This document shows positions 18,740 through 31,283 of a DNA stretch of 42,702 nucleotides, one piece after another (position 1 is the first letter of the stretch; each line of letters opens with the position of its first letter). Position numbers and translations under genes: made by a program. Origin of the DNA: Lentisphaerae bacterium GWF2_49_21 (GTDB lineage: Bacteria > Verrucomicrobiota > Lentisphaeria > Victivallales > GWF2-50-93). The stretch spans positions 1 through 42,702 of the forward strand of contig MHBH01000001.1 of assembly GCA_001804805.1 (NCBI GenBank). Reading direction: 5' to 3'. The notes below the pieces were generated by a model, which searched no databases, was not told where the DNA came from, and worked only from the letters and a program-made list of their open reading frames with translations.

Positions 18740-20389
18740 ATGAATCATCTTTTGAGGGGCCTTGCAGCGGCCGTAATCGCATTTGCATTCCTCTTTACCT
18801 CTTTCGGGGACAACAAGTCATATGCAAAACCGGGAAAGGAAGAGACTCTGGCCGCCGAAGGTTTGAAAATAAAGCTCTTCAAGGATGTTGTCAGCAGACC
18901 GCTCCCTACCCCCAACTCCCTCACGCTCCATAACAGCAAGGGAGATAAGTTCGAGGCGTGCAATCCCTGGGATGTATGGACCCGCGACCAGTATGTCGCA
19001 AGCTGGGGCTGTGCGCAGGGTACAATCCTGATCTTCAAGATGACACTCCCGGTACCGTCGGACCTGCCGATCGCCTTCAAGGGACTTTCCATCAAAAAAG
19101 ACTATGACACATGGAAATCGGAGGCGAAGCCGGACTGGAACGAAAATTCCATCAAGGAATGGCTTAAATACTTCTCCCAAAATAAATTCTCCGGCACTAC
19201 CGACGCAGTCCAGAAGGACATCCCGAAGAAAAACAAGATCCTCAGATACCATTATGCCGACAAGACGGAGGACATCTATGATTCCGCATATCTTGTCGAA
19301 TGCACCGACAGGCCCGGGGAACGGTTCCTGATCGCATATGAGCTCGCACGGGACGTGGATGTGGAAAAAAGCGAAAAGGCAATTCTGTCTTCCCTCCAGT
19401 CCCTATCATTCTTCCCTCCGAAAAAGGCCGAGGACAAGCAGTCGACCTCCATCAAGACTACTTTGAAGAAAGATGCGTCTCCGGAATTCGCGGCAAGCAG
19501 GGAGTCCGTCATAAAGAGCATTAAGAACCTGAAAGGCTGGGAATATATTCCGACCGACAACTTCATAATCGGATACAACGTCAAAAACAAGAAGACCATA
19601 TCGGAGCTCCAGAGCAACCTTGAAAAGAGCCGGAGCGCCTTTACAAAATTCTATCCCCTGAAAAATCCCCTGAAGGCCGTCAGCGTCTGCAAGGTCTTCG
19701 AGACTAGGGAGGAATATGTGGCCTATGTCCCGGAGCAGATGAGCTGGACCTCGGGGGTCTGGATGCCGATGAAGAGGGAACTGGCGATCTCTCCTTTGAA
19801 CTGGGGAACCCAGGCCGACAGCCGCAAGGTGATGATCGACATAGCATATCACGAGGGATTCCACCAGTATATATTCTACGCGGCTGACGAAATCGAATGC
19901 GCCGTCTGGTTCAACGAGGGAAATGCCACCTTCTTCGAGGGAATAGACTTCAAGGCCGGAGACAAGGTGAAGATAGACACCACCGAATATCTCAAGGAGA
20001 TGAAGAGGATCTCTGAACTGGACTTGAATCTTGATAAATTCATAAAGCTGCCCCACAGCGGATTCTACAGCGGGAACCGCAAGCAGAACTATACCGTTGC
20101 CTGGGGACTGATGTTCTACCTCCTGAAAGGCGCCCCTTCCCTGAAGGAAAAGAACAATTATTCAGATATACCATATAAGTATTATGACGCCCTGCTCGAG
20201 CTGAAGAACGGCGAGAAGGCCACGGAAAAGGCCTGGGAGGGTGTTGACATGAAAAAGTTCGCCAGGGATTTCGAAGAGTTCTGGAAGAGCGACACTATGA
20301 TTAGACGCGCCGAATCGTATGATCCAGTCGCGGAAAGAGCGAAGCTCGTTCCAAAAACACCGCCCGCCTCGGCACCGGCAGGCAGGTAG
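18740..20389 (+). CDS. Exported HExxH zinc metallopeptidase-like protein
   Basis: The 549 residues start with a signal peptide (LAAAVIAFAFLFTSFG). Residues about 30-230 form an unrecognised beta-rich domain, possibly a lipoprotein-like or PsbP-like fold. The C-terminal part (from about 255) has the gluzincin arrangement: IAYHEGFHQYIFYA gives HExxH, and VWFNEGNATFFEG about 20 residues later gives the third ligand Glu. This resembles DUF1570-type putative peptidases common in Planctomycetes and relatives. TTGGAG precedes ATG 18740. The end is Pro/Ala-rich (PKTPPASAPAGR). It lies just upstream of the sigma/VWA/giant-protein cluster but is separated by a large palindrome, so joint function is only possible. 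The substrate is unknown. Confidence 0.75.
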   Translation: MNHLLRGLAAAVIAFAFLFTSFGDNKSYAKPGKEETLAAEGLKIKLFKDVVSRPLPTPNSLTLHNSKGDKFEACNPWDVWTRDQYVASWGCAQGTILIFKMTLPVPSDLPIAFKGLSIKKDYDTWKSEAKPDWNENSIKEWLKYFSQNKFSGTTDAVQKDIPKKNKILRYHYADKTEDIYDSAYLVECTDRPGERFLIAYELARDVDVEKSEKAILSSLQSLSFFPPKKAEDKQSTSIKTTLKKDASPEFAASRESVIKSIKNLKGWEYIPTDNFIIGYNVKNKKTISELQSNLEKSRSAFTKFYPLKNPLKAVSVCKVFETREEYVAYVPEQMSWTSGVWMPMKRELAISPLNWGTQADSRKVMIDIAYHEGFHQYIFYAADEIECAVWFNEGNATFFEGIDFKAGDKVKIDTTEYLKEMKRISELDLNLDKFIKLPHSGFYSGNRKQNYTVAWGLMFYLLKGAPSLKEKNNYSDIPYKYYDALLELKNGEKATEKAWEGVDMKKFARDFEEFWKSDTMIRRAESYDPVAERAKLVPKTPPASAPAGR

Positions 20390-20665: not shown

Positions 20666-20709
20666 GCTTCAAATCCTCTAATAAACCTCAAATCCAGTCG
20701 TCATATATA

Positions 20710-21270
20710 ATGAGAACAGAGAAGGAAAAAAACAGCGGCAATACCGGCAAAGGAGCGGTTCCAAAGCAGGATCTGATGACGGAAATAACTGAAATCATCA
20801 AGGAACGCGAGGCGCCCCTGCTACGGTATGCGGGAAGGCTCATACGCGACGCCGACACCGCCAGGGATGTCGTCCAGGAGGTCTTCATCAGATATGTGCG
20901 GATCTCGCAGGAACAGGACAGGCCGAGGATCGAGAACCTTCCGGCCTGGCTGTACAGGGTGACAAGGAACCTCTGCCTGGACCACCTCAAATCCAAGAAG
21001 GTCCAGCTTGAGATACCGATCGACGAAAAGATTGCGGATTTCCCGGGGACCGAGAGGCCCGACAAGACACTTGAGAAGGAAGAGAACATGATGATGCTGA
21101 GGAAAAAAATAATGGAGCTTGACCCGCGCGACCGGGAGATCGTCCTTCTCAAGCTCGAACATGGCCGGAGCTACAAGGAGATCGCGGTGATCATGAACAT
21201 CAGTGTCACAAATGTGGGTTTCATCCTGCATACCGCCATGAAGAAACTCGTAAGAGATTTTAACGTTTAA
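20710..21270 (+). CDS. ECF-type RNA polymerase sigma factor
   Basis: A sigma-70 family factor without region 1, about 186 residues from ATG 20710 or 164 from ATG 20776. The latter has AGGA four bases upstream and may be the true start. Region 2 is visible as LLRYAGRLIRDADTARDVVQEVFIRYVRI and AWLYRVTRNLCLDHL, where core RNA polymerase and the -10 element are contacted. Region 4 is DPRDREIVLLKLEHGRSYKEIAVIMNISVTNVGFILHTAMKKL, a helix-turn-helix for the -35 element. The next gene, 20 bases on, carries an N-terminal anti-sigma zinc finger. I infer that this sigma is held at the membrane by that protein and released by a surface signal. Confidence 0.93.
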   Translation: MRTEKEKNSGNTGKGAVPKQDLMTEITEIIKEREAPLLRYAGRLIRDADTARDVVQEVFIRYVRISQEQDRPRIENLPAWLYRVTRNLCLDHLKSKKVQLEIPIDEKIADFPGTERPDKTLEKEENMMMLRKKIMELDPRDREIVLLKLEHGRSYKEIAVIMNISVTNVGFILHTAMKKLVRDFNV

Positions 21271-21290
21271 TTTTTTGCAGGCAAAAAATT

Positions 21291-24200
21291 ATGACTTGTG
21301 AAAAAATATCAAAGATGATGACGGATCTTCTGGCCGGCGAACTCTCCGCCGAAGAAAAGGCCATACTCGACGCCCATCTCGCCTCCTGCGAAAACTGCAG
21401 GAAGGAGTTCGCGGATCTGGAGAAGGTCTGGAAGCTGACCGAGGAATCCCTCAGGTGCGAACCTTTCCAGAAACAGATGAATCCTGAGAACTATGAGAAC
21501 ATATACAGGCAGGCCTATACTAGGACTGAAAAACCCGCTTCGAAAAAATTCTTTTCATTCAAGGTCGACCATCTCGTAATGAAAATCGCTGCGATGCTTG
21601 CGATAACCGCAGTACTTGCCGCGCTGCTGCTGCCGGCATTCAGCACGGCAAGGGAAAAGGCAAGAAGAATAACATGTGGAGTCACAAGCACTCTTGGCAG
21701 CAGCGAGGAAGTTTCTGTACAAATCTCCGCGTCTGAAGTTACAACAAAATCTGAAGACCTCCTAAAAGATCTTGATCAAAACGGAATTGCCCCGAACGGG
21801 CCTGGAGCAAAGACTCTTCCAGAAACATTACCAACATCATCCACCCGTATATCAGCAGGGAAATACGCGGTTTCAAAATCCGGAGCCGCAGGCTATGACA
21901 GAAGAGACATGGACAAGACAGTCCAGACTGCCGTTCCGGCGAATACGCCTTCTGCCCCGCCTCCGCCACTTGTCCAGCCCGCAAAACCTTTAGCAAAGGC
22001 TTTAAAGGAAGAAATGCTTGAAAAAGATACGAGAAGCCGTGGCGTTGCCGGTTCAAAAACTGTACGCGCTGAATACAAAAAGTCGGATGGATATGTTCAG
22101 GGGAAAACAGCGGAACATGCAAAAATGAAGCAGATGTTGGAAGGAGTCGAGGACGTGCCAGCCATACCGGCTCCTGCCGCCGCCCCCGCCTACGGATATG
22201 TAAATGCTAAATCAGAGGAGTCTAAGCCTGTAACAGCTGAAAATTCTGATTTCCTGACATTGCCCGGGAGTGTATCAATAGCTGAAAGAAAATCCGCCAT
22301 GGCATCGAGAACTCCGAAAGCAGGGGAATCTTTGAAAAATAATGAACCTGTCCTAGCAGATAAGGCAATGGATGTCCTCGAGCAGGAAATCGCCCCTTCC
22401 GAACGGCAGCTGAATGAATCCGTGCGGTTAAGAACTTTCGCGTCCACCACCGCCGGACAAAATATACTCGAGGACAAGGCACAAAAACTGGATTCCCTTG
22501 AGAGGAAGAAATCACTACTTAAAATAAGAGAGTCGGGAGCGGCTGCTAAAGAAGCGGCGGATGAAGATATTGATCGTAATGGTCTCGTAGATGCAAAGCA
22601 GGAGGCAATGCAGGAAGAACAGGAAGGCGAAGTCGCGTTGGAAAAACTGGAGGTAATGAAGACAGCTCCGAGCAGTTCCGCCCTGAAATTACCCATGAAA
22701 AAAGCATTATCCGACGGCAAGGAATCCCTGCAACTTGCACAGCAAGAAGCTGTTCCTCACGACGTCATGGAGTCAAGGATCTATCCTATCAATAAAGAAG
22801 TACTGCGCGATGTCGGAGGAAGCGATGCGGAGCTTGTAAAATACCTGAAATCAAAAAAAATATCATTTGATGAAGGTGCAAAAATCATATCCCATTCTGA
22901 CATTGGAAGGATAGTAATAACAAACACTCCGGAAGAACTCCAAAAGGTAGAAAAGATATTCACCGAGCTTGAAGACGCCTACCAGAGATCCAAGGAGTTC
23001 AAGAACGGAATTCCCTTCAGCGACACGAAGCAGAAGCAGTTCTCGACATTCTCGATCGATGTGGATACCGCCTCCTACACGATGGCGAGGAAGCTTCTGG
23101 TGAACGGGATCAAGCCGGATCCTACTGCAGTCAGACCCGAGGAGTTCATTAATTATTTCGACTATCACTACCGTTCGCCTTCGAACTCGACATTCGCGGT
23201 CTATCTCGAAACCGCGCCGTCCGTGTTCCGTCCGGAAAACTACACCCTGCGGATCGGCGTCAAAGCCCGCGACATCGGACCCGACGGAAGCCGTCCGTCC
23301 GTGTTCACCATCATCATTGACGCGAGCGGTTCGATGTCACAGGCGAACAGGATGGATCTTGTCAAGAAGTCCCTGCCTCAGCTCTTCGACCAGATGAAGC
23401 CGGCCGACAAGATCGCAATTTTCCTCTGCACGCACCGCGTCATGAACCTCGTAGACTACGTTCCCGCCAGCAACAAGAAGACCATCTCCAAGCTAGTTGA
23501 AGGGATAATGCCCGCAGGCGTCGCCGACATCGAGAAAGGACTGATCGCAGCCTATGACTCAGCCCTGAAACACTACGAGTCCGGCGCGTACAACCGTGTC
23601 ATCCTCATCACCGACGGCATCTCGAACATCGGTTCGAAATCCGCCGAGACAATCCTTGCCAAAGTCAGCGCCGCCAGGAACATGGGCGTTACAAATACCG
23701 TCGTGGCGCTCGGTGGCGACGGAGACGACAAGTTCCTCGAAGCGATAGCCAACAAGGGCGATGGCAACTACGTCTTCATTGACAATGAGGAAGCCGCAAA
23801 CGAAGTATTCGTAAAGGAATTCGAAGGGCGTTTCCGCGAAATAGCGAGGGATGTGAAGATCCAGGTAGAGTTCAATCCTGTTATCGTAAACCAGCACCGC
23901 CAGATCGGCTACCAGAACCGCCAGCTCAGCAAGGCGGATTTCAGGAACGACAAGGTCGACGCCGGCGAAGTCGGAGCCGGACAATCCGTCACCGCCCTTT
24001 ACGAACTCAAGCTCAACAGGAAGCTTCCAAAAGCCGATGCCTCAATAGAAAATCCGATGTCACAGTCCGTGTGCATCGTTCGTCTCCGCTACCGCAGGGC
24101 GGACACCATGGACGTCGAAGAGAAGGAGTTCATGCTGCCGTTGTACGAGGCGAAGACCAATTTCGCGAACGCATCCTGCGGATTCCGTCTGGCATCCTCA

Positions 24201-24356
24201 GTTGCGGAATTCGCAGAATTCCTGCGCTTCCCCGATGTCTCTGGTATCGCAAATCCCGGGAACATCATGAAACAGGTGCAGGGAGTCATAAGCGAGGACT
24301 ACAAGAACGACGGAAAGGTGTCCGAGCTTAATACACTGATAAAAAATGTAAAGTAG
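21291..24356 (+). CDS. Anti-sigma zinc finger / pseudopilin-like anchor / YfbK-type VWA fusion
   Basis: A 1021-residue membrane protein. Residues 1-40 have C3, H29, C33 and C36, the HxxxCxxC anti-sigma (zf-HC2) zinc finger, expected in the cytoplasm to bind the adjacent ECF factor. Residues 95-129 are one membrane segment ending LLLPAFSTAREKARRITC, strikingly like the start of type II pseudopilins. Residues about 130-500 are Ala/Glu/Pro-rich low complexity. Around residue 545, ITNTPEELQKVEKIF resembles a secretin-type short domain. From about 575 on is a YfbK-like unit: FSTFSIDVDTASYTMARK, then the VWA domain with MIDAS motif DASGSMS at 677-683 and ILITDGISNIG, then the YfbK-type C-terminal domain. 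The VWA part should face the periplasm. Its ligand is unknown. Confidence 0.88.
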   Translation: MTCEKISKMMTDLLAGELSAEEKAILDAHLASCENCRKEFADLEKVWKLTEESLRCEPFQKQMNPENYENIYRQAYTRTEKPASKKFFSFKVDHLVMKIAAMLAITAVLAALLLPAFSTAREKARRITCGVTSTLGSSEEVSVQISASEVTTKSEDLLKDLDQNGIAPNGPGAKTLPETLPTSSTRISAGKYAVSKSGAAGYDRRDMDKTVQTAVPANTPSAPPPPLVQPAKPLAKALKEEMLEKDTRSRGVAGSKTVRAEYKKSDGYVQGKTAEHAKMKQMLEGVEDVPAIPAPAAAPAYGYVNAKSEESKPVTAENSDFLTLPGSVSIAERKSAMASRTPKAGESLKNNEPVLADKAMDVLEQEIAPSERQLNESVRLRTFASTTAGQNILEDKAQKLDSLERKKSLLKIRESGAAAKEAADEDIDRNGLVDAKQEAMQEEQEGEVALEKLEVMKTAPSSSALKLPMKKALSDGKESLQLAQQEAVPHDVMESRIYPINKEVLRDVGGSDAELVKYLKSKKISFDEGAKIISHSDIGRIVITNTPEELQKVEKIFTELEDAYQRSKEFKNGIPFSDTKQKQFSTFSIDVDTASYTMARKLLVNGIKPDPTAVRPEEFINYFDYHYRSPSNSTFAVYLETAPSVFRPENYTLRIGVKARDIGPDGSRPSVFTIIIDASGSMSQANRMDLVKKSLPQLFDQMKPADKIAIFLCTHRVMNLVDYVPASNKKTISKLVEGIMPAGVADIEKGLIAAYDSALKHYESGAYNRVILITDGISNIGSKSAETILAKVSAARNMGVTNTVVALGGDGDDKFLEAIANKGDGNYVFIDNEEAANEVFVKEFEGRFREIARDVKIQVEFNPVIVNQHRQIGYQNRQLSKADFRNDKVDAGEVGAGQSVTALYELKLNRKLPKADASIENPMSQSVCIVRLRYRRADTMDVEEKEFMLPLYEAKTNFANASCGFRLASSVAEFAEFLRFPDVSGIANPGNIMKQVQGVISEDYKNDGKVSELNTLIKNVK

Positions 24357-24379
24357 CAGCGCAATTTATTGCGCGTTTT

Positions 24380-24445
24380 AAGTAGGTACGGGCTTTAGCC
24401 TGTACCAGGATTTAAGATGGTACATCCTAAAGGACGTACCTACTT
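24380..24445 (+). repeat. 66-bp cruciform between the VWA gene and the giant gene
   Basis: AAGTAGGTACG (24380-24390) pairs with CGTACCTACTT (24435-24445). Inside are GGTAC-N12-GTACC and GGTACATCC-TAAA-GGACGTACC, giving a cloverleaf-like fold. It has no T-run. It may be a REP-type repeat and may also set relative expression within the operon. Confidence 0.6.
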
Positions 24446-24476
24446 TTGAAAAACATCTTAATAATTGGAGGATATC

Positions 24477-27400
24477 ATGAAAGGATTTTTTGCCGTAGTC
24501 GGAACTTTGATTCTATTTTTAAATTGTCATTTCACCAACGCAGAGGAACCACCGCCGCCGCAGGAAAAGAATTTCACGGTGAACAGCATCAAGCTCGAAG
24601 GCGAGATAGCCGACGAGGACAATATAACTTTCACACTGGCATTCTCGGCAGAAGCCGCTGAGCCGGGTTCGCATGTCATGGTCTCCGGCAAGATCACCGA
24701 GCTGGCGTCCGAGGTCAAGGTCAAAGCCAGCGGATTCCTCTGGCTTGGCGGCGGCAAATTCAAGATCGTATTCAAGGACGGCGCATACGTCCTGGAATGC
24801 GTGAAAGCTGGAAAGTGCGACGTGAAATTCACGTTTGCCGCGAAGGTCGAGGACATGCCGACAATCATGCCCCTGGCAAAGAACCAGAAAGCTCAGATCA
24901 TGCCTCCGCCCGAGGACAAGAAAGGCATCAAGACCTGCACTTTCGGGCTTCTCCCGGCGGTAGCGAGATCCATCCAGATAAAAAGCGCAAAAAAGGACAT
25001 TGATCTCTCCATCATGGGCGGGCTCAATATCGAGAAGAAAGACGTCCCCGGAACCGAAGGCGCGATCTTCACGGCCGTCCTGCCTCCCGAAGGCTTGCTC
25101 CAGATGACATGGCGCAGCCAGGTCGAGAAAATCACCGCGAACCTTGTCACAAGCGTCCAGGCGACGACCATCGCCGAAGTCTTCCCGGGAACAGTCAAGC
25201 TCAATTCCATGCTTCAATACACCGTCATCCAGGGCAGGCTGTCGAACCTCGAGATCAAGATAAGCCAGGGCTTGAACATACTCAGCGTCACAGGCGAGAA
25301 CATACAGGACTGGAAAGTGAACGAGGACAAGGAGAAGGGAGACACTCTCGTCGTCACATTGAGCAAATACTACGAGGATTCATATTCCGTATCGGTAGAA
25401 TCGGAAAAGGTGCTTCCTGACTTCCCGAGCAAGTTCTCACTGCCGACCGCTGTTCCTCTTAAAGCGCTGAGGATAGACGGCTATCTCGCCTTCGGAACCG
25501 ACGGCGCGATCAAGCTCATCGTCGACAAGACCACCGGACTGAACCAGATCGACAACAGTTCGTTCCCCGCTGAAAACAGGAGGAAGATCCGGGCCCTTCC
25601 GAAGAAGACACTTTTCACCTACAAGTTCTCGGGCGAGAAATATTCATTGGACACGAGCGCCGACAACATCATGCCAAACTACACAGTGGATCTCACCTAT
25701 GTGCTGAACTTCAAGGACGAGGATCTCATAGTCAGGGCGAACTGCAGTCTTGACATCAAGGACGCCCCCCTGCGCGAACTGCTGATAAAGTATTCAAACG
25801 ACATGACGGTGAACCGCGTCGAGGGGAGAGCCACCATGGCCGACGACTATGAGACCTTTGAAAAGGAAGGACAGAAATGGCTCAAGATACCGTTTGCTCC
25901 TGACACTCTTGGCAAGGCAGACCTGTTCATTAATTTCGAGAAGAGCATGAAGAACACGAGTTCCACCAAGCTCCCTTCCTTCTTCATAGACGGCGCAAAG
26001 ACCGTGCGCGGAAACGTACTTCTCGCGTCGAACCGCGGGCTCTCATTGGCAGTGGATGATATCAAGGGGCTGCGCAAGTATCCAACGGGTTCGGCGCCTA
26101 TAAGGGAACCCGGACTGCAGCACAACTACCGTTTCAAGGACCAGGAATGGGAAGGAAAGGTGACCATCACACATGAGCAAGTCAACATAGTTTCCGAAGT
26201 ATTCCACATCGGTTCCGTGGGCGAAGGCACGATCTACGGAAGTTCAATATTCACCTACCATGTCTCCGGCGCGCCCATTGACAAGATTCAGCTCAAGATA
26301 AATCCTTCCGTGAAGAACCTTGAGTTCACCGGCGGAAACATAGTCGACTGGAAGATGACCGAAAGCAATGCCGAAAGCCAGACCTGGCAGGTCAACTTCA
26401 AGGAGAAGATTTTCGGCGACTACACCCTCCTCTCAACCTACGAGAGCCCTCTTTCCGGAGCTGAGACGAAATACAGGATGGGCGATCTGGTCACAGTCGG
26501 AGCCGGTGCGGAATCAGGATTCATCGCACTCACGAGCGCAAGGAACCTCAAGGTGTCATCCGGAAAATCTTCGGAGTCTGTTACGGAAATCGAAGCGTCT
26601 GAAATCCCAGATGAATACAAGGCTTTCCTGCAGAACCCAATCCTGAAGGCATATCGCTTCACGCTCACTCCGCACTGGATCGACATGGGCATTTCGGGAT
26701 ATGCCTCGCAGCAGATGATAAATATCGCCGTCGACCATGCACGGTTCACATCGAGGATCGATCGCAATGGACAGGCAGTGACAACCGCCGAGTACCGCAT
26801 CAAGAATTCGTCCCTTCAGTTCCTTGCGATGGAGCTTCCTGCAAAATCTGAACTGTGGACAGTCAAGGTGAACGGCGAGAAGAAACGCATCTCGTCCTCC
26901 AACAGCAAATATCTGATCCCCCTTCCCCGCAACAAGAACACCGACGACCCGATCGCCGTAGAGATAACATATGCCGAAAAGAATGGCGAACTCGGGAAGT
27001 CCGCAGATATCAAGCTGACCGCCCCGACGCTGGATCTTGAAACCATGTTCTCGCGCTGGCTGGTGCAGGTCCCTGAGAACTACAACCTCTACGACTATGG
27101 CGGCAACATGGCGCCTCTGCGGAATCCGCAGAGGATCGGACTCGGTGGAATCCTTTCAAGGCTGTCCATGTGGATAAAACGTTTCCTGAATCCACTTGTA
27201 CTCATCCCATGGATCGCATTTACAGCAGTGGGCGCCCTTGTCGTATGGAGCTGGACAAGCGGCAGGATGAAAATTCCGCTTACGATAATATCCGTCATCG
27301 CCATCGGAATAGTCCTCGTGGTCATGTTCAACTCCCTGCAGAAGAAATTCCACAGGACGTTGCCGGAATTCATGCCTGAGCCTGTAAACGCCTGTGAATT

Positions 27401-30400
27401 CACGCGTCTGTTCAGCCTTCCCCAGGACACGCCGAAAATAGAGATCTGCATGTCGGACATGAAAGGGACGTCGTTCCTCAAGCTCCTCTATGCAGGAGCC
27501 ATGACGATCCTCGGTTTCGCCCTTCTCGGAATTGGAATGCTCTCAAAAGGCGGATTTAAGTCGTCCATGCTCATCTCTGTCGGTATAGTATTCCTGCTCT
27601 CTGCGCTGTCGCACTGGCTCTACGTGAACGCGATAATCGCATTCCTGCTTGCAGCCCTTGTGCCAGTGATCCTGACTTTCGGATTCTGGCGGATGATATT
27701 CATGAAATACCGAAACATCGCGGTCGCGTGCCTGGCCTTCTGCTTCATCATTCCTTTCTCCACGCAGGCGGCGGACAGCAGTGGAATAACCATAGAAGAC
27801 GTGCTGTTCAAGATCTCGGCGGCGATCACCGACGACGAAAAGTCCATCACAGGAACCGCCCGCTACATCATCAAGGCGGAAAAAGGCGGAACTGTGATCT
27901 TCCTTCCGGCTCCTGCCGTCCTCACAGGTGGGACAGATAAGATTTCCGGGCTCGAAATAATCCGCAGCGGGAACAACTACATGCTCAAGGCGGAAAGTTC
28001 CGGCGAGTATGAATTTGAAATATCCTTCCTCCTGCCAGTAGTCGAGGAGAAAAGCGGCAATTTCCAGTTCCCAATCACCATCCCGCTGTGCAAAAGGAAT
28101 TCCGTGGAAGTCAGGATGAACCGCGAGAACATCGACATCACCTCTCAGGCCGCAGTATTCTTCAAGTCGATCGTCACGAACAACATCTGCAGCGCACAGG
28201 CGAACTTCGTGCCCGGAACGAACGCCATATTCAAGTTCCGGCCTCAGGTCAGAAAGGTCGAGAAGGAGAAGACCGTGTTCTTCACGAGCATCGACGCACT
28301 TGCGAAGTTCGCAAGCGGATTCGTCGAGATCAAATCCTATCTCAACTTCCAGGTGGCGCAGGGCGAAACTGCGAAGTTCGCAGTCGAGATCCCGGAGAAT
28401 ATGCGCGTGACATCCGTCAGCGCGCCGGACCTCGGAGCCTGGCGCTTCGTGGAGGAAAGCCATCTCCTCGAAGTCTTCCTCTCGCAGCCGCACCACGGGA
28501 ATTTCACCGCGACGATCGTAACCCAGATCGCCAACTGCAACCTTCCGTATGAGTCCAAGATAGGGACGCTGTCAGTCAAGGACGCCGGCAAGCAGCATGG
28601 TACGCTCGGAGTCAGCGTTGATTCCAATGTGCAGGTGCTGGTCGACGACAAGCTCGACGGATTCAACAGCATCAACCTGAACGATTTCACTGCGAAGTTC
28701 GCAGACATCGGTCCGGCCCTCAAGAAGGCGTTCCGCTACAACAAGCCTCCAGCGTCGATAACGGTGAAGGCGAGCGCGGTCGAGCCTGAGCTGAGAGTCA
28801 AGGAAAACTACACCGTATCGTTCGAAGAAGAGAAGACTGTGCTGACATCGGATCTCAACCTTGAGATCGCAAAGTCCGGAATATTCTCGGTGTCGATCGA
28901 CATTCCCGAAAACTACGATATCGACAAGGTGACAGGTTCCGACGTCCAGCACTGGGACGAAATATCCGAAAAGAACGTCCACAAGATCCTTGTCCATTTC
29001 GACAAGAGCATCTGCGGCACTACCGACATCCATCTCGAACTCACCCTTTCCGAGAGGAAGCGCGAGAAGTCGATGACCATTCCAAAGATCACGGTTTCCG
29101 GCACGCAGAAGCACAAGGGTGATCTGACTATCACGCTTGAACGGGGCACGAGGATGGACATCGCATCGAGACAGGGACTTGAAATCAAGACCGAAGGATT
29201 CGCTCAGAGCCGCGACAAGAACGCACACAGGTTCTCTATTGTCAGGGCCGACTGGGAGTTGAAGGTCAGTTTCGACGTGATCGCCCCATGGGTCCAGGCG
29301 GAAATCCTCCAGATCGGAAAAGTCACAGAGGGTGTCGTGGAATATGACGCCTATTTCCATTATTCCATTGAGAACGCTGGCGTCAAATCCTTCAGGATAC
29401 GTCTGCCGGAAAATGCCGAGACTCCTGAATTCTCCGGAGAGAACATGGCGGATCCGCGCAACGTTGAAAATGACAAGAGCCTCTGGGAGATCGAACTCCA
29501 CCAGAAGGTCAACGGCAAATATATGCTCCAGGCCCATTACCGTATCCCCTTCGGCAAAAACACACAGGTGAAAATCGCCCCTGTCGTGACCGAAGGCACC
29601 GAACTCCAGAAGGGTTATCTCGCTGTGCTGTCAGATGATTCGCTCCAAGTGAAGCTCTCCGACAAGAAAGGCGAGATCTCCGAATTCGATGTGAGGAAGA
29701 TACCGACATATTTCAAGGTGAGCTATCTTTCAAATGCCGTGATGTGCTTCCGCACTGTCGGAAACGACTATTCGATAACTCTCGAAGCAATCAGGCACAA
29801 GACTGCGGACCAGCTGAAGGCGCAGATCAAAAGCGTGAATATAAGTTCCGTAGTTTCGCCGGAGGGAAGGGTCATCACTTCGACGCAGCTGTCTCTGATC
29901 AACGGAAACCAGACCTTCCTCGAGATGAAGCTTCCTGAAGGCAGCAACCTGTGGTCGGTGCTGATCGACAACCAGGCGGTAGATGTCGCCAAGGAGAAAA
30001 GCAACCTCCTGATTCCGCTGAGGCAGGGCCTTTCCGGCGGCGGACGCGACCAGAACATCGAGATAATCTATTCATTGCAGGCCGACAAGGCATGGTCGAC
30101 AAGGAACCAGATCTACAACGGTCCGTCGTTCAACCTGCCGCTCAGGAACGTCAGCTGGAACCTGTATCTGCCGAAGGAATTCCAGTATTCCAACTTCGGT
30201 GGCACGCTGGACTATTTCGACCGCACGCTTACAAGCCTTACCTACATAAATCTCGAGGATTATGACAAGGACAACGAAATGTATAACGACGAAAAAAACA
30301 GGACCGCGAAGGTCATGCTGAGCAAGGCGAACAAGAGCGCCGCTTCCGGAAAAAAACAGGAGGCGTCTGAATTCTTCCAGAGCGCATCGAACCTTTCACT

Positions 30401-30905
30401 CAATGATGCCGAACTCAACGCAGACGTCAAGGGACAGTGGCAGCAGGTACAGAGGGATAATTCAATACAGGGACTTGTCGGAAGAAGGGTAGCCCAGAAG
30501 AAAGGGAAATCCGTGTCAATGGATGAACTCCAGGTTGCTCCAAATGCTCCAATCAAGCCGCTTGCACAGATTGAAGACATCAATGCGATAAAACAGCAGC
30601 TCGGCGGCACGGAAGTAAGCCATCTGCAGACAATCTCCGACAAGATATTCATGCAGCAGCAGCAGGCCGCAGCGGTTCCACATCCTCTGAGACTGACAAT
30701 TCCCGAAGGCGGAACAAAGCTTGAGTTCAGGAGGGCCCTGCAGGTGACGCCATTCGCACCGACTCAGATTTCCTTCAAGGCGAAAAAGACGCTTTCCTGG
30801 GACGACTTCTCGGAAGTATTTGCGGGCATCGCAATAATGTTCGGTATCGCGATACTGTTCCTGCTGGTGAAGCCCATGTTCAGGAAGACGGAAACGGCGG
30901 ATTGA
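24477..30905 (+). CDS. Giant two-part membrane protein of the sigma/VWA cluster
   Basis: The 2142 residues belong to no family I recognise. GGAGG before ATG 24477 and signal peptide MKGFFAVVGTLILFLNCHF fix the start. Residues about 25-890 are a beta-rich extracytoplasmic region. Residues about 905-1095 hold five or six hydrophobic segments. The last, MKYRNIAVACLAFCFIIPFS then TQAADSS at M1076, looks like a complete signal peptide. A second beta-rich region (about 1100-1900), a helical, Lys/Ala/Gln-rich stretch and a C-terminal membrane segment at about 2114-2134 follow. A module with the core '(V/F)(T/S)G.(N/D)(I/V).(D/H)W' recurs near residues 268, 615, 1311, 1482 and 1649. I infer an ancient fusion of two related genes, acting at the envelope under the upstream sigma factor. 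A strong terminator follows. Confidence 0.85.
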   Translation: MKGFFAVVGTLILFLNCHFTNAEEPPPPQEKNFTVNSIKLEGEIADEDNITFTLAFSAEAAEPGSHVMVSGKITELASEVKVKASGFLWLGGGKFKIVFKDGAYVLECVKAGKCDVKFTFAAKVEDMPTIMPLAKNQKAQIMPPPEDKKGIKTCTFGLLPAVARSIQIKSAKKDIDLSIMGGLNIEKKDVPGTEGAIFTAVLPPEGLLQMTWRSQVEKITANLVTSVQATTIAEVFPGTVKLNSMLQYTVIQGRLSNLEIKISQGLNILSVTGENIQDWKVNEDKEKGDTLVVTLSKYYEDSYSVSVESEKVLPDFPSKFSLPTAVPLKALRIDGYLAFGTDGAIKLIVDKTTGLNQIDNSSFPAENRRKIRALPKKTLFTYKFSGEKYSLDTSADNIMPNYTVDLTYVLNFKDEDLIVRANCSLDIKDAPLRELLIKYSNDMTVNRVEGRATMADDYETFEKEGQKWLKIPFAPDTLGKADLFINFEKSMKNTSSTKLPSFFIDGAKTVRGNVLLASNRGLSLAVDDIKGLRKYPTGSAPIREPGLQHNYRFKDQEWEGKVTITHEQVNIVSEVFHIGSVGEGTIYGSSIFTYHVSGAPIDKIQLKINPSVKNLEFTGGNIVDWKMTESNAESQTWQVNFKEKIFGDYTLLSTYESPLSGAETKYRMGDLVTVGAGAESGFIALTSARNLKVSSGKSSESVTEIEASEIPDEYKAFLQNPILKAYRFTLTPHWIDMGISGYASQQMINIAVDHARFTSRIDRNGQAVTTAEYRIKNSSLQFLAMELPAKSELWTVKVNGEKKRISSSNSKYLIPLPRNKNTDDPIAVEITYAEKNGELGKSADIKLTAPTLDLETMFSRWLVQVPENYNLYDYGGNMAPLRNPQRIGLGGILSRLSMWIKRFLNPLVLIPWIAFTAVGALVVWSWTSGRMKIPLTIISVIAIGIVLVVMFNSLQKKFHRTLPEFMPEPVNACEFTRLFSLPQDTPKIEICMSDMKGTSFLKLLYAGAMTILGFALLGIGMLSKGGFKSSMLISVGIVFLLSALSHWLYVNAIIAFLLAALVPVILTFGFWRMIFMKYRNIAVACLAFCFIIPFSTQAADSSGITIEDVLFKISAAITDDEKSITGTARYIIKAEKGGTVIFLPAPAVLTGGTDKISGLEIIRSGNNYMLKAESSGEYEFEISFLLPVVEEKSGNFQFPITIPLCKRNSVEVRMNRENIDITSQAAVFFKSIVTNNICSAQANFVPGTNAIFKFRPQVRKVEKEKTVFFTSIDALAKFASGFVEIKSYLNFQVAQGETAKFAVEIPENMRVTSVSAPDLGAWRFVEESHLLEVFLSQPHHGNFTATIVTQIANCNLPYESKIGTLSVKDAGKQHGTLGVSVDSNVQVLVDDKLDGFNSINLNDFTAKFADIGPALKKAFRYNKPPASITVKASAVEPELRVKENYTVSFEEEKTVLTSDLNLEIAKSGIFSVSIDIPENYDIDKVTGSDVQHWDEISEKNVHKILVHFDKSICGTTDIHLELTLSERKREKSMTIPKITVSGTQKHKGDLTITLERGTRMDIASRQGLEIKTEGFAQSRDKNAHRFSIVRADWELKVSFDVIAPWVQAEILQIGKVTEGVVEYDAYFHYSIENAGVKSFRIRLPENAETPEFSGENMADPRNVENDKSLWEIELHQKVNGKYMLQAHYRIPFGKNTQVKIAPVVTEGTELQKGYLAVLSDDSLQVKLSDKKGEISEFDVRKIPTYFKVSYLSNAVMCFRTVGNDYSITLEAIRHKTADQLKAQIKSVNISSVVSPEGRVITSTQLSLINGNQTFLEMKLPEGSNLWSVLIDNQAVDVAKEKSNLLIPLRQGLSGGGRDQNIEIIYSLQADKAWSTRNQIYNGPSFNLPLRNVSWNLYLPKEFQYSNFGGTLDYFDRTLTSLTYINLEDYDKDNEMYNDEKNRTAKVMLSKANKSAASGKKQEASEFFQSASNLSLNDAELNADVKGQWQQVQRDNSIQGLVGRRVAQKKGKSVSMDELQVAPNAPIKPLAQIEDINAIKQQLGGTEVSHLQTISDKIFMQQQQAAAVPHPLRLTIPEGGTKLEFRRALQVTPFAPTQISFKAKKTLSWDDFSEVFAGIAIMFGIAILFLLVKPMFRKTETAD

Positions 30906-30941: not shown

Positions 30942-31283
30942 CATCTATTGCTTCGACGGATAATCAGCTTGCATTTCAGTCGCTCTCTTCAATGTCGCCG
31001 CCCTGCGGTGGCTTTTTTCTTTTTAACTTATTGACTTCCCAGGGCTTTTGCCCTGGGCTACAATATACCGCCCTCTGCGAGGGCTTAAGACAGAATCTGA
31101 TTCCATAGGAAGCCTCCGCAGGATGGCGACATATTGTAGCCCATGGGCGTCAGCCATGGGACATGTGTGGAATAAAATGTATCCAGAGTCCCCGCAGGGA
31201 GGCGACATAAAAACAGCCTTTCCGAACTCGCGTATTATTGCTTCGGAGATAATCAACTTGCATGTCTCTCGCTCTCAGCGCCT
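30942..31283. repeat. Direct repeat pair flanking palindromic repeats
   Basis: ATTGCTTCGACGGATAATCA... (30947-30990) recurs as ATTGCTTCGGAGATAATCAA... (31235-31279), each followed by TTGCAT and TCGCTCTC. Between them, CCCTGGGCTACAATATACCG... (31053-31074) is inverted at 31122-31144 (GGCGACATATTGTAGCCC...), and CAGGGCTTTTGCCCTG and CCATGGGCGTCAGCCATGG are local hairpins. Confidence 0.55.
30997..31018 (+). terminator. Rho-independent terminator of the sigma/VWA/giant operon
   Basis: GCCGCC-CTGC-GGTGGC (30997-31012, one G-T pair) is followed by TTTTTTCTTTTT. It is 92 bases after the giant gene's stop. Confidence 0.8.

Follow-up and report, generated by a model that had tools for sequence, protein, structure and literature searches.

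Among the closest described systems are the pairs of ECF sigma factors and class I anti-sigma domain (ASDI, zf-HC2) proteins, which comprise a two-domain ECF sigma factor, an adjacent single-pass anti-sigma protein with an Hx3Cx2C motif and a promoter of their own. A mix of zinc and non-zinc forms is known within one group of class I anti-sigma domains (PMC7406223). YfbK proteins combine PF12450, VWA and PF12034 with a MIDAS motif. In cell-surface signalling, an envelope receptor contacts the anti-sigma factor (PMC11637429).

Here we describe a locus of Lentisphaerae bacterium GWF2_49_21 in which an ECF sigma gene is followed by a gene for an anti-sigma/VWA fusion and a gene for a giant envelope protein. 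All positions are those of the window, the whole 42,702-nucleotide stretch of contig MHBH01000001.1 that was analysed. The first two genes share with ECF/ASDI pairs each of the features named above; they differ in a predicted periplasmic part of 900 residues that ends in a complete YfbK VWA, in prepilin- and secretin-like pieces, and in the third, giant gene fixed to the pair. All three Pfam domains of YfbK and an intact MIDAS motif are likewise present. However, canonical YfbK proteins form a separate clade with ORFs of 455-742 aa, whereas the giant-linked forms mostly reach 680-1700 aa and carry an anti-sigma N-terminus. Cell-surface signalling would be the best known working analogue of the trio: on our reading, the periplasmic part of an anti-sigma protein is in both contacted by a large envelope partner, which thereby sets sigma activity (PMC11637429). 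The analogy differs in that the giant is no TonB-dependent receptor and is predicted to lie in the inner membrane, and no FecR domain was found. We regard the trio as ECF signalling with an added giant family that lacks a Pfam or NCBIfam entry, and the ECF/VWA pair may already be a group in the ECF classification.

Architecture of the ECF-VWA-giant locus

The initial annotation had proposed three consecutive plus-strand genes closing at one terminator. The three ORFs are confirmed, as is the intrinsic terminator (30994-31018, plus strand), whose 8-pair stem at 30994-31012 is followed by TTTTTT; the gap from the sigma stop to the VWA ATG measures 20 bases, just as claimed. The ECF sigma factor (20710-21270, plus strand; 186 aa) matches Sigma70_r2 (E 2e-12) and Sigma70_r4_2 (E 3e-13) in Pfam, scores 311 bits with our own HMM, and contains regions sigma2 and sigma4 and no others, as an ECF member should. 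Position 20710 lies only 6 bases past the predicted -10 element, so translation from there would be near-leaderless; an ATG at 20776, giving 164 aa, is the alternative, and the choice between the two starts is uncertain. The operon of sister genome G001 has an ECF gene from which the greater part of sigma region 2 has been lost (137 aa; L024:6046-6459). Just downstream of the giant gene of that genome stand another ECF gene, which is intact and 80% identical to that of the window, and a zf-HC2 protein without VWA (L024:16604-18601).

The second gene (21291-24356, plus strand) encodes a 1021-aa protein that Pfam and hydropathy describe as a single-pass membrane protein. The earlier assignment of an anti-sigma zinc finger to its N-terminus and a YfbK-type VWA to its C-terminus proved correct at both ends. 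A zf-HC2 domain, predicted to be cytosolic, occupies residues 3-37 (21297-21401; Pfam E 6e-10) with the HxxxCxxC motif HLASCENC, which together with the adjacent ECF gene makes the protein a candidate class I (ASDI) anti-sigma factor. The YfbK module (23013-24350) is made up of vWF_A (575-651), VWA (674-836; E 5e-15) and YfbK_C (849-1020; E 5e-38); the arrangement of vWF_A, VWA and YfbK_C with a DxSxS-type MIDAS motif, here DASGSMS, is that of the YfbK type, and DxSGSM and DG are invariant across 66 proteins. The AlphaFold model of the VWA core (pLDDT 89.8, pTM 0.83) retrieved with Foldseek the VWA/beta-sandwich cores of ArnA/ArnB, Sec23/24 and the inter-alpha-inhibitor heavy chain, and the pilus adhesins SpaC, Mfa5 and PitA too.

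Between these ends lie two pieces with relatives elsewhere in the same genome. The transmembrane (TM) helix at residues 99-117, predicted from hydropathy, is set in a prepilin-like stretch (residues 94-133, 21570-21689; LLLPAFSTAREKARRITC) that is 44-53% identical to prepilin-like proteins; one of these, when checked, consisted of N_methyl and DUF1559, and three proteins related to the VWA protein score above cut-off for DUF1559 itself. Just ahead of the YfbK module, a Secretin_N-type domain (residues 483-561, 22737-22973) is 41-45% identical to two secretin-family proteins, both of which a model of the domain recovers (E 1e-13 to 1e-18), and its AlphaFold model has the order beta-alpha-beta-beta-alpha. 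Only in the window's clade is this domain present throughout; for the middle part of the protein, no match was obtained in most other clades. What recurs over the phylum is the predicted topology of a cytosolic anti-sigma-like domain, a TM helix, a long linker and the VWA. In one clade the Hx3Cx2C zinc motif is absent and a helical-looking N-terminal domain of about 100 residues is kept before the TM helix, which agrees with the known zinc and non-zinc mix of class I anti-sigma domains (PMC7406223). The VWA protein is a candidate transmembrane anti-sigma factor, with binding and inhibition of the sigma factor predicted from its domains, and it would be one built of prepilin-like, secretin-like and VWA parts. 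The corresponding protein of G005 (L029:4476-8333) contains an alpha-alpha toroid of the squalene-hopene cyclase or TED-like kind, a fold found in alpha-2-macroglobulin as well.

A terminator-like hairpin (24359-24374, plus strand) stands just past the VWA stop and ahead of the giant gene, so that some transcripts in the source genome may stop short of the giant. Besides this hairpin, the spacer of 24356-24476 contains a longer inverted repeat with an interruption (GTAGGTACGGGC...GTACCTAC), which may be an attenuator or a mobile repeat.

The giant (24477-30905, plus strand) is a protein of 2142 aa whose ATG at 24477 follows a good ribosome site, ggagg. Hydropathy suggests a signal peptide, followed by an N-terminal ectodomain (residues 25-900, 24549-27176), six clustered TM helices (residues 907-1099, 27195-27773) that are kept in relatives, with a signal-peptide-like AxA stretch next to the last, a C-terminal ectodomain with a helical TPR-like tail seen in the AlphaFold model (residues 1100-2110, 27774-30806), and a C-terminal TM helix (residues 2113-2131, 30813-30869) with a short tail predicted to be cytosolic. 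Much the same TM pattern was found in the full-length relatives examined. Both large parts are therefore predicted to lie outside the inner membrane, on its outer face. The description of the giant as a two-part protein turned out to be an understatement: the two halves are homologous (hhalign of 25-900 against 1100-2110: 809 columns, probability 100, E 1.4e-91, 19% identity), and this alignment identifies the giant as an ancient tandem duplication of beta-sandwich strings. AlphaFold renders the second half as a chain of beta-sandwiches and then helices; at a mean pLDDT of 84.2 and a pTM of 0.46, its domains are reliable and their arrangement is not.

The giant was said to belong to no known family, and indeed no Pfam or NCBIfam family matches it. 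A PDB profile search returned only designed TPRs, aligned with the helical tail. Foldseek paired the modelled half with ribophorin I, integrin alpha and CD109, all chains of beta-sandwiches and all at a TM-score below 0.3, so an assignment to a fold family was dropped; C5 was also matched weakly. The TMEM132 cohesin-like family (PF23039) was likewise rejected, its single match (residues 258-301, E 0.005) reaching 16.9 bits against a cut-off of 27 and occurring in only one of 11 giant members, which is not membership. No MG2, A2M, bait or TED domain was matched that would make the giant an alpha-2-macroglobulin. No giant was found on plasmids. The closest named relative is Lentisphaerae bacterium GWF2_50_93, with a giant 80% identical.

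Conservation of the gene order

A protein search found the giant in 12 of the 100 nearest relatives, and a scan of genome contigs turned up only two close relatives. With a profile of 11 members, relatives came up in 80 of the 388 genomes of Verrucomicrobiota; in 65 genomes the matches were strong and of the full-length type. The trio spans the phylum, including Lentisphaerae. HMMs derived from the window group served to annotate the loci, and 57 of the 66 strong loci have more than 1.5 kb of upstream sequence on the contig. In 52 of these 57 testable loci a same-strand VWA ORF lies upstream, usually no more than a few hundred bases away, and in at least 46 an ECF ORF stands ahead of the VWA. 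The order ECF-VWA-giant spans many families, and in many relatives the genes are only a few bases apart; the flanking genes of the operon are common only within the genus. Contig breaks interrupt the locus in G004 and G007, with the ECF-VWA pair running up to a contig end and the giant starting at one, which fits adjacency. Hence the expectation that giant homologues lie beside ECF and VWA genes was borne out.

The counter-case, that of homologues occurring without these genes, is confined to a small remainder, and to that extent it holds. A giant without an adjacent VWA gene was seen at five loci (L034, L119, L128, L129 and L130). In four genomes of this set (G062, G186, G204, G224) YfbK_C was not matched anywhere, and the genome of L119 encodes a YfbK_C protein elsewhere. 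A further 15 genomes have only very distant giant relatives; at the eight such loci that were read (L131-L135, L139-L141), two or three genes encode the protein in pieces, with no ECF or VWA gene. These split forms are perhaps an ancestral or a separate system. At seven of the loci (L131, L132, L134, L135, L139-L141) the parts measure about 1200 and 1300-2500 aa.

YfbK_C occurs in 133 of the 388 genomes. It is present in 59 of 65 with a giant but in only 74 of the other 324 (Fisher P 1e-25, a value that ignores shared ancestry). Pairs of an ECF gene and a TM-containing YfbK gene in the same order also exist without a giant, several of them with canonical YfbK (L065-L070). The VWA anti-sigma protein thus does not need the giant, and sigma and VWA appear as a separable unit to which the giant is an added part. 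In an unrooted, quick tree, the canonical YfbK proteins included form a single clade (support 100) and all primary giant-linked VWA proteins fall outside it; the VWA protein of the window does not group with canonical YfbK there. One operon, in G212 (L143:11173-16115), has both kinds of VWA gene, in the order ECF, canonical YfbK, giant-type VWA, giant.

Taken together, the kept order, the position of the VWA proteins outside the YfbK clade and the literature support well the proposal of one undescribed envelope system: the open-access papers that the search covered yielded none on the trio, and among them no comparable envelope-stress pathway was found to have been described for Verrucomicrobiota.

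Promoter elements and regulon candidates

An ECF-type promoter is predicted immediately ahead of the sigma gene (20677-20704, plus strand), with a -35 element TCTAATAAA at 20677-20685, a 13-base spacer and a -10 element CGTCAT at 20699-20704. The same element precedes the ECF gene in G001, G002, G004, G005, G012 and G025, and this conservation supports an ECF-type promoter ahead of the operon's own sigma gene. Over the phylum the promoter takes two clade-specific forms. Form 1, TAATAA[AG]-N12-15-[CGT]GTC, occurs in 12 of the 48 regions upstream of ECF genes against 0.04 in shuffles, and form 2, [CT]AAGG[AT][AT]-N12-GTGTC, in 11 of 48 against fewer than 0.05; both patterns were written after the regions had been viewed, so the shuffle comparison overstates the enrichment. 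A blind enumeration showed strongly enriched dyads upstream of ECF genes, with 10 occurrences where shuffles gave no more than 4, a figure in which, as in the pattern counts, related sequences are counted more than once. Genome-wide, form 2 had 15 matches against 2 in controls (12 genomes), mostly at the giant operon itself. Form 1, searched as a loose pattern within single genomes, was no commoner than its reversed control; its raw counts do not beat the control, and the evidence for it is one of position. Autoregulation of the sigma operon via its own promoter would be the best reading of these data.

Beyond the operon, form 1 precedes an alpha-2-macroglobulin gene in five genomes of the window's family (G000, G001, G002, G003, G004), always with a 13-base spacer. 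The encoded protein of 2070 aa has the MG2, bait, A2M, TED and bMG10 domains of bacterial alpha-2-macroglobulin (PMC4498604); it differs in being predicted to be ECF-driven, and the giant itself has only weak structural matches to CD109 and C5. In G253, which belongs to another family, the promoter stands ahead of a protein 31% identical (E 1e-72) to the N-terminal part of the alpha-2-macroglobulin, in the fetched part of which Pfam gives TPR-like matches only. At the alpha-2-macroglobulin gene of G012 or G307 the promoter was not seen. On the position of these sites, the sigma factor probably also turns on this protease-trapping alpha-2-macroglobulin in the window's family. The alpha-2-macroglobulin frame of G007 (C410 620-5961) contains three in-frame TAG codons, which may reflect decay of the gene, faulty assembly or recoding of TAG.

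Other candidates fared less well. Sites upstream of a TonB-like gene in G000, G001 and G003 were dropped because they lie inside the translated end of an ExbD-like protein (VLIRADGTRQYNEVMEVMKAV) and would thus be conserved as protein. Sites of the source genome at SIMPL (C39) and ARPP-1/ECF2 (C22) are leads only: as isolated targets they are unsure, since the single-genome counts of form 1 equal those of the reversed control. The C22 locus of the source genome (L037:6717-10165) consists of ARPP-1, an ECF gene (57% identical) and a zf-HC2 protein, with the same promoter ahead of the ARPP-1 gene, and is a possible sigma cascade. In G240 and G345 (L243 and L255, near 1440-1990), a secreted protein of 141-143 aa, 77% identical between the two, follows the promoter GTAATAAA-N13-CGTCA and is likely to be a further target of the sigma factor.

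A candidate envelope switch and its alternatives

The gene order and its conservation, the domain make-up, the duplication and the conserved promoter can all be read from the DNA, and the topology is predicted. We give an even chance to the reading that the trio forms an ECF switch which spans the membrane, regulates itself and keeps watch on the cell envelope. The VWA protein would keep the sigma factor at the inner membrane through its cytosolic zinc-finger domain, and its only TM helix would carry the secretin-type N domain and the VWA into the periplasm. There, the giant, with seven TM anchors and two homologous beta-sandwich strings, would serve as the dedicated partner, the MIDAS-bearing VWA most likely docking on a giant module. 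Loss or change of this contact, perhaps through envelope damage, force or proteolysis, would free the sigma factor to transcribe its own operon and, in the window's family, the alpha-2-macroglobulin protease trap. With alpha-2-macroglobulin as a target, the output would be envelope repair or defence. We infer the binding of VWA to giant, the signal, the proteolytic release and the direction of control; the giant could equally be an effector rather than a ligand. It is tempting, and for now speculative, to extend this to a so far undescribed, phylum-wide envelope-stress pathway of three components in which the VWA reads the state of the giant and turns on alpha-2-macroglobulin, a bacterial analogue of surface immune surveillance. 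The conserved promoter, the likely regulon member and the new giant family make signal, partner and output each testable.

Were the giant the effector, sigma and VWA would be a complete switch and the giant its main regulated product, a scaffold or adhesin anchored in the membrane that reinforces the envelope. ECF and YfbK genes do pair without a giant, some genomes have a giant without any YfbK, and the giant is the final gene of the operon, preceded by a hairpin that may attenuate transcription. However, the giant-linked VWA proteins are a lineage apart from canonical YfbK, and the VWA gene stays beside the giant over the whole phylum, beyond what co-regulation alone would need; we therefore hold this reading to be possible and rather unlikely.

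The prepilin-like TM stretch and the Secretin_N domain of the anti-sigma protein, each matching proteins of the same genome, invite a further explanation, namely that the system monitors a type IV pilus or type II secretion, with the anti-sigma protein docking on the secretin or pseudopilus and the giant as a periplasmic scaffold of the apparatus. Pilus proteins with VWA domains, such as the Foldseek matches SpaC, Mfa5 and PitA, would be in keeping with this, but the restriction of the secretin-type domain to the window's clade and the lack of recognised secretion genes beside the operon make it improbable. Gene order can persist for a while by vertical inheritance alone, and three envelope genes might then be neighbours by chance or convenience and share no functional link. 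An order kept over dozens of families, with flanks common only within the genus and genes few bases apart in many relatives, renders such an origin very improbable indeed.

Around the trio, the gene immediately upstream (18740-20389) encodes a secreted DUF1570 protein with an HEGFH motif. It is syntenic in G001 and G002 (55-59% identity) and absent from this position in more distant relatives, and hence falls outside the phylum-wide unit. No PADLOC model of a known anti-phage defence system was matched. Downstream of the terminator, the Rfam 'RNA' Acido-Lenti-1 is matched at 31038-31085 (plus strand) and 31111-31160 (minus strand). The source genome has 55 matches, 28 of them above cut-off, and many copies form close inverted pairs (C63, C82, C50, C1, C17, C64 and C77); judged by this pattern, Acido-Lenti-1 has the look of a dispersed repeat of the REP/BIME type and not of an sRNA gene.
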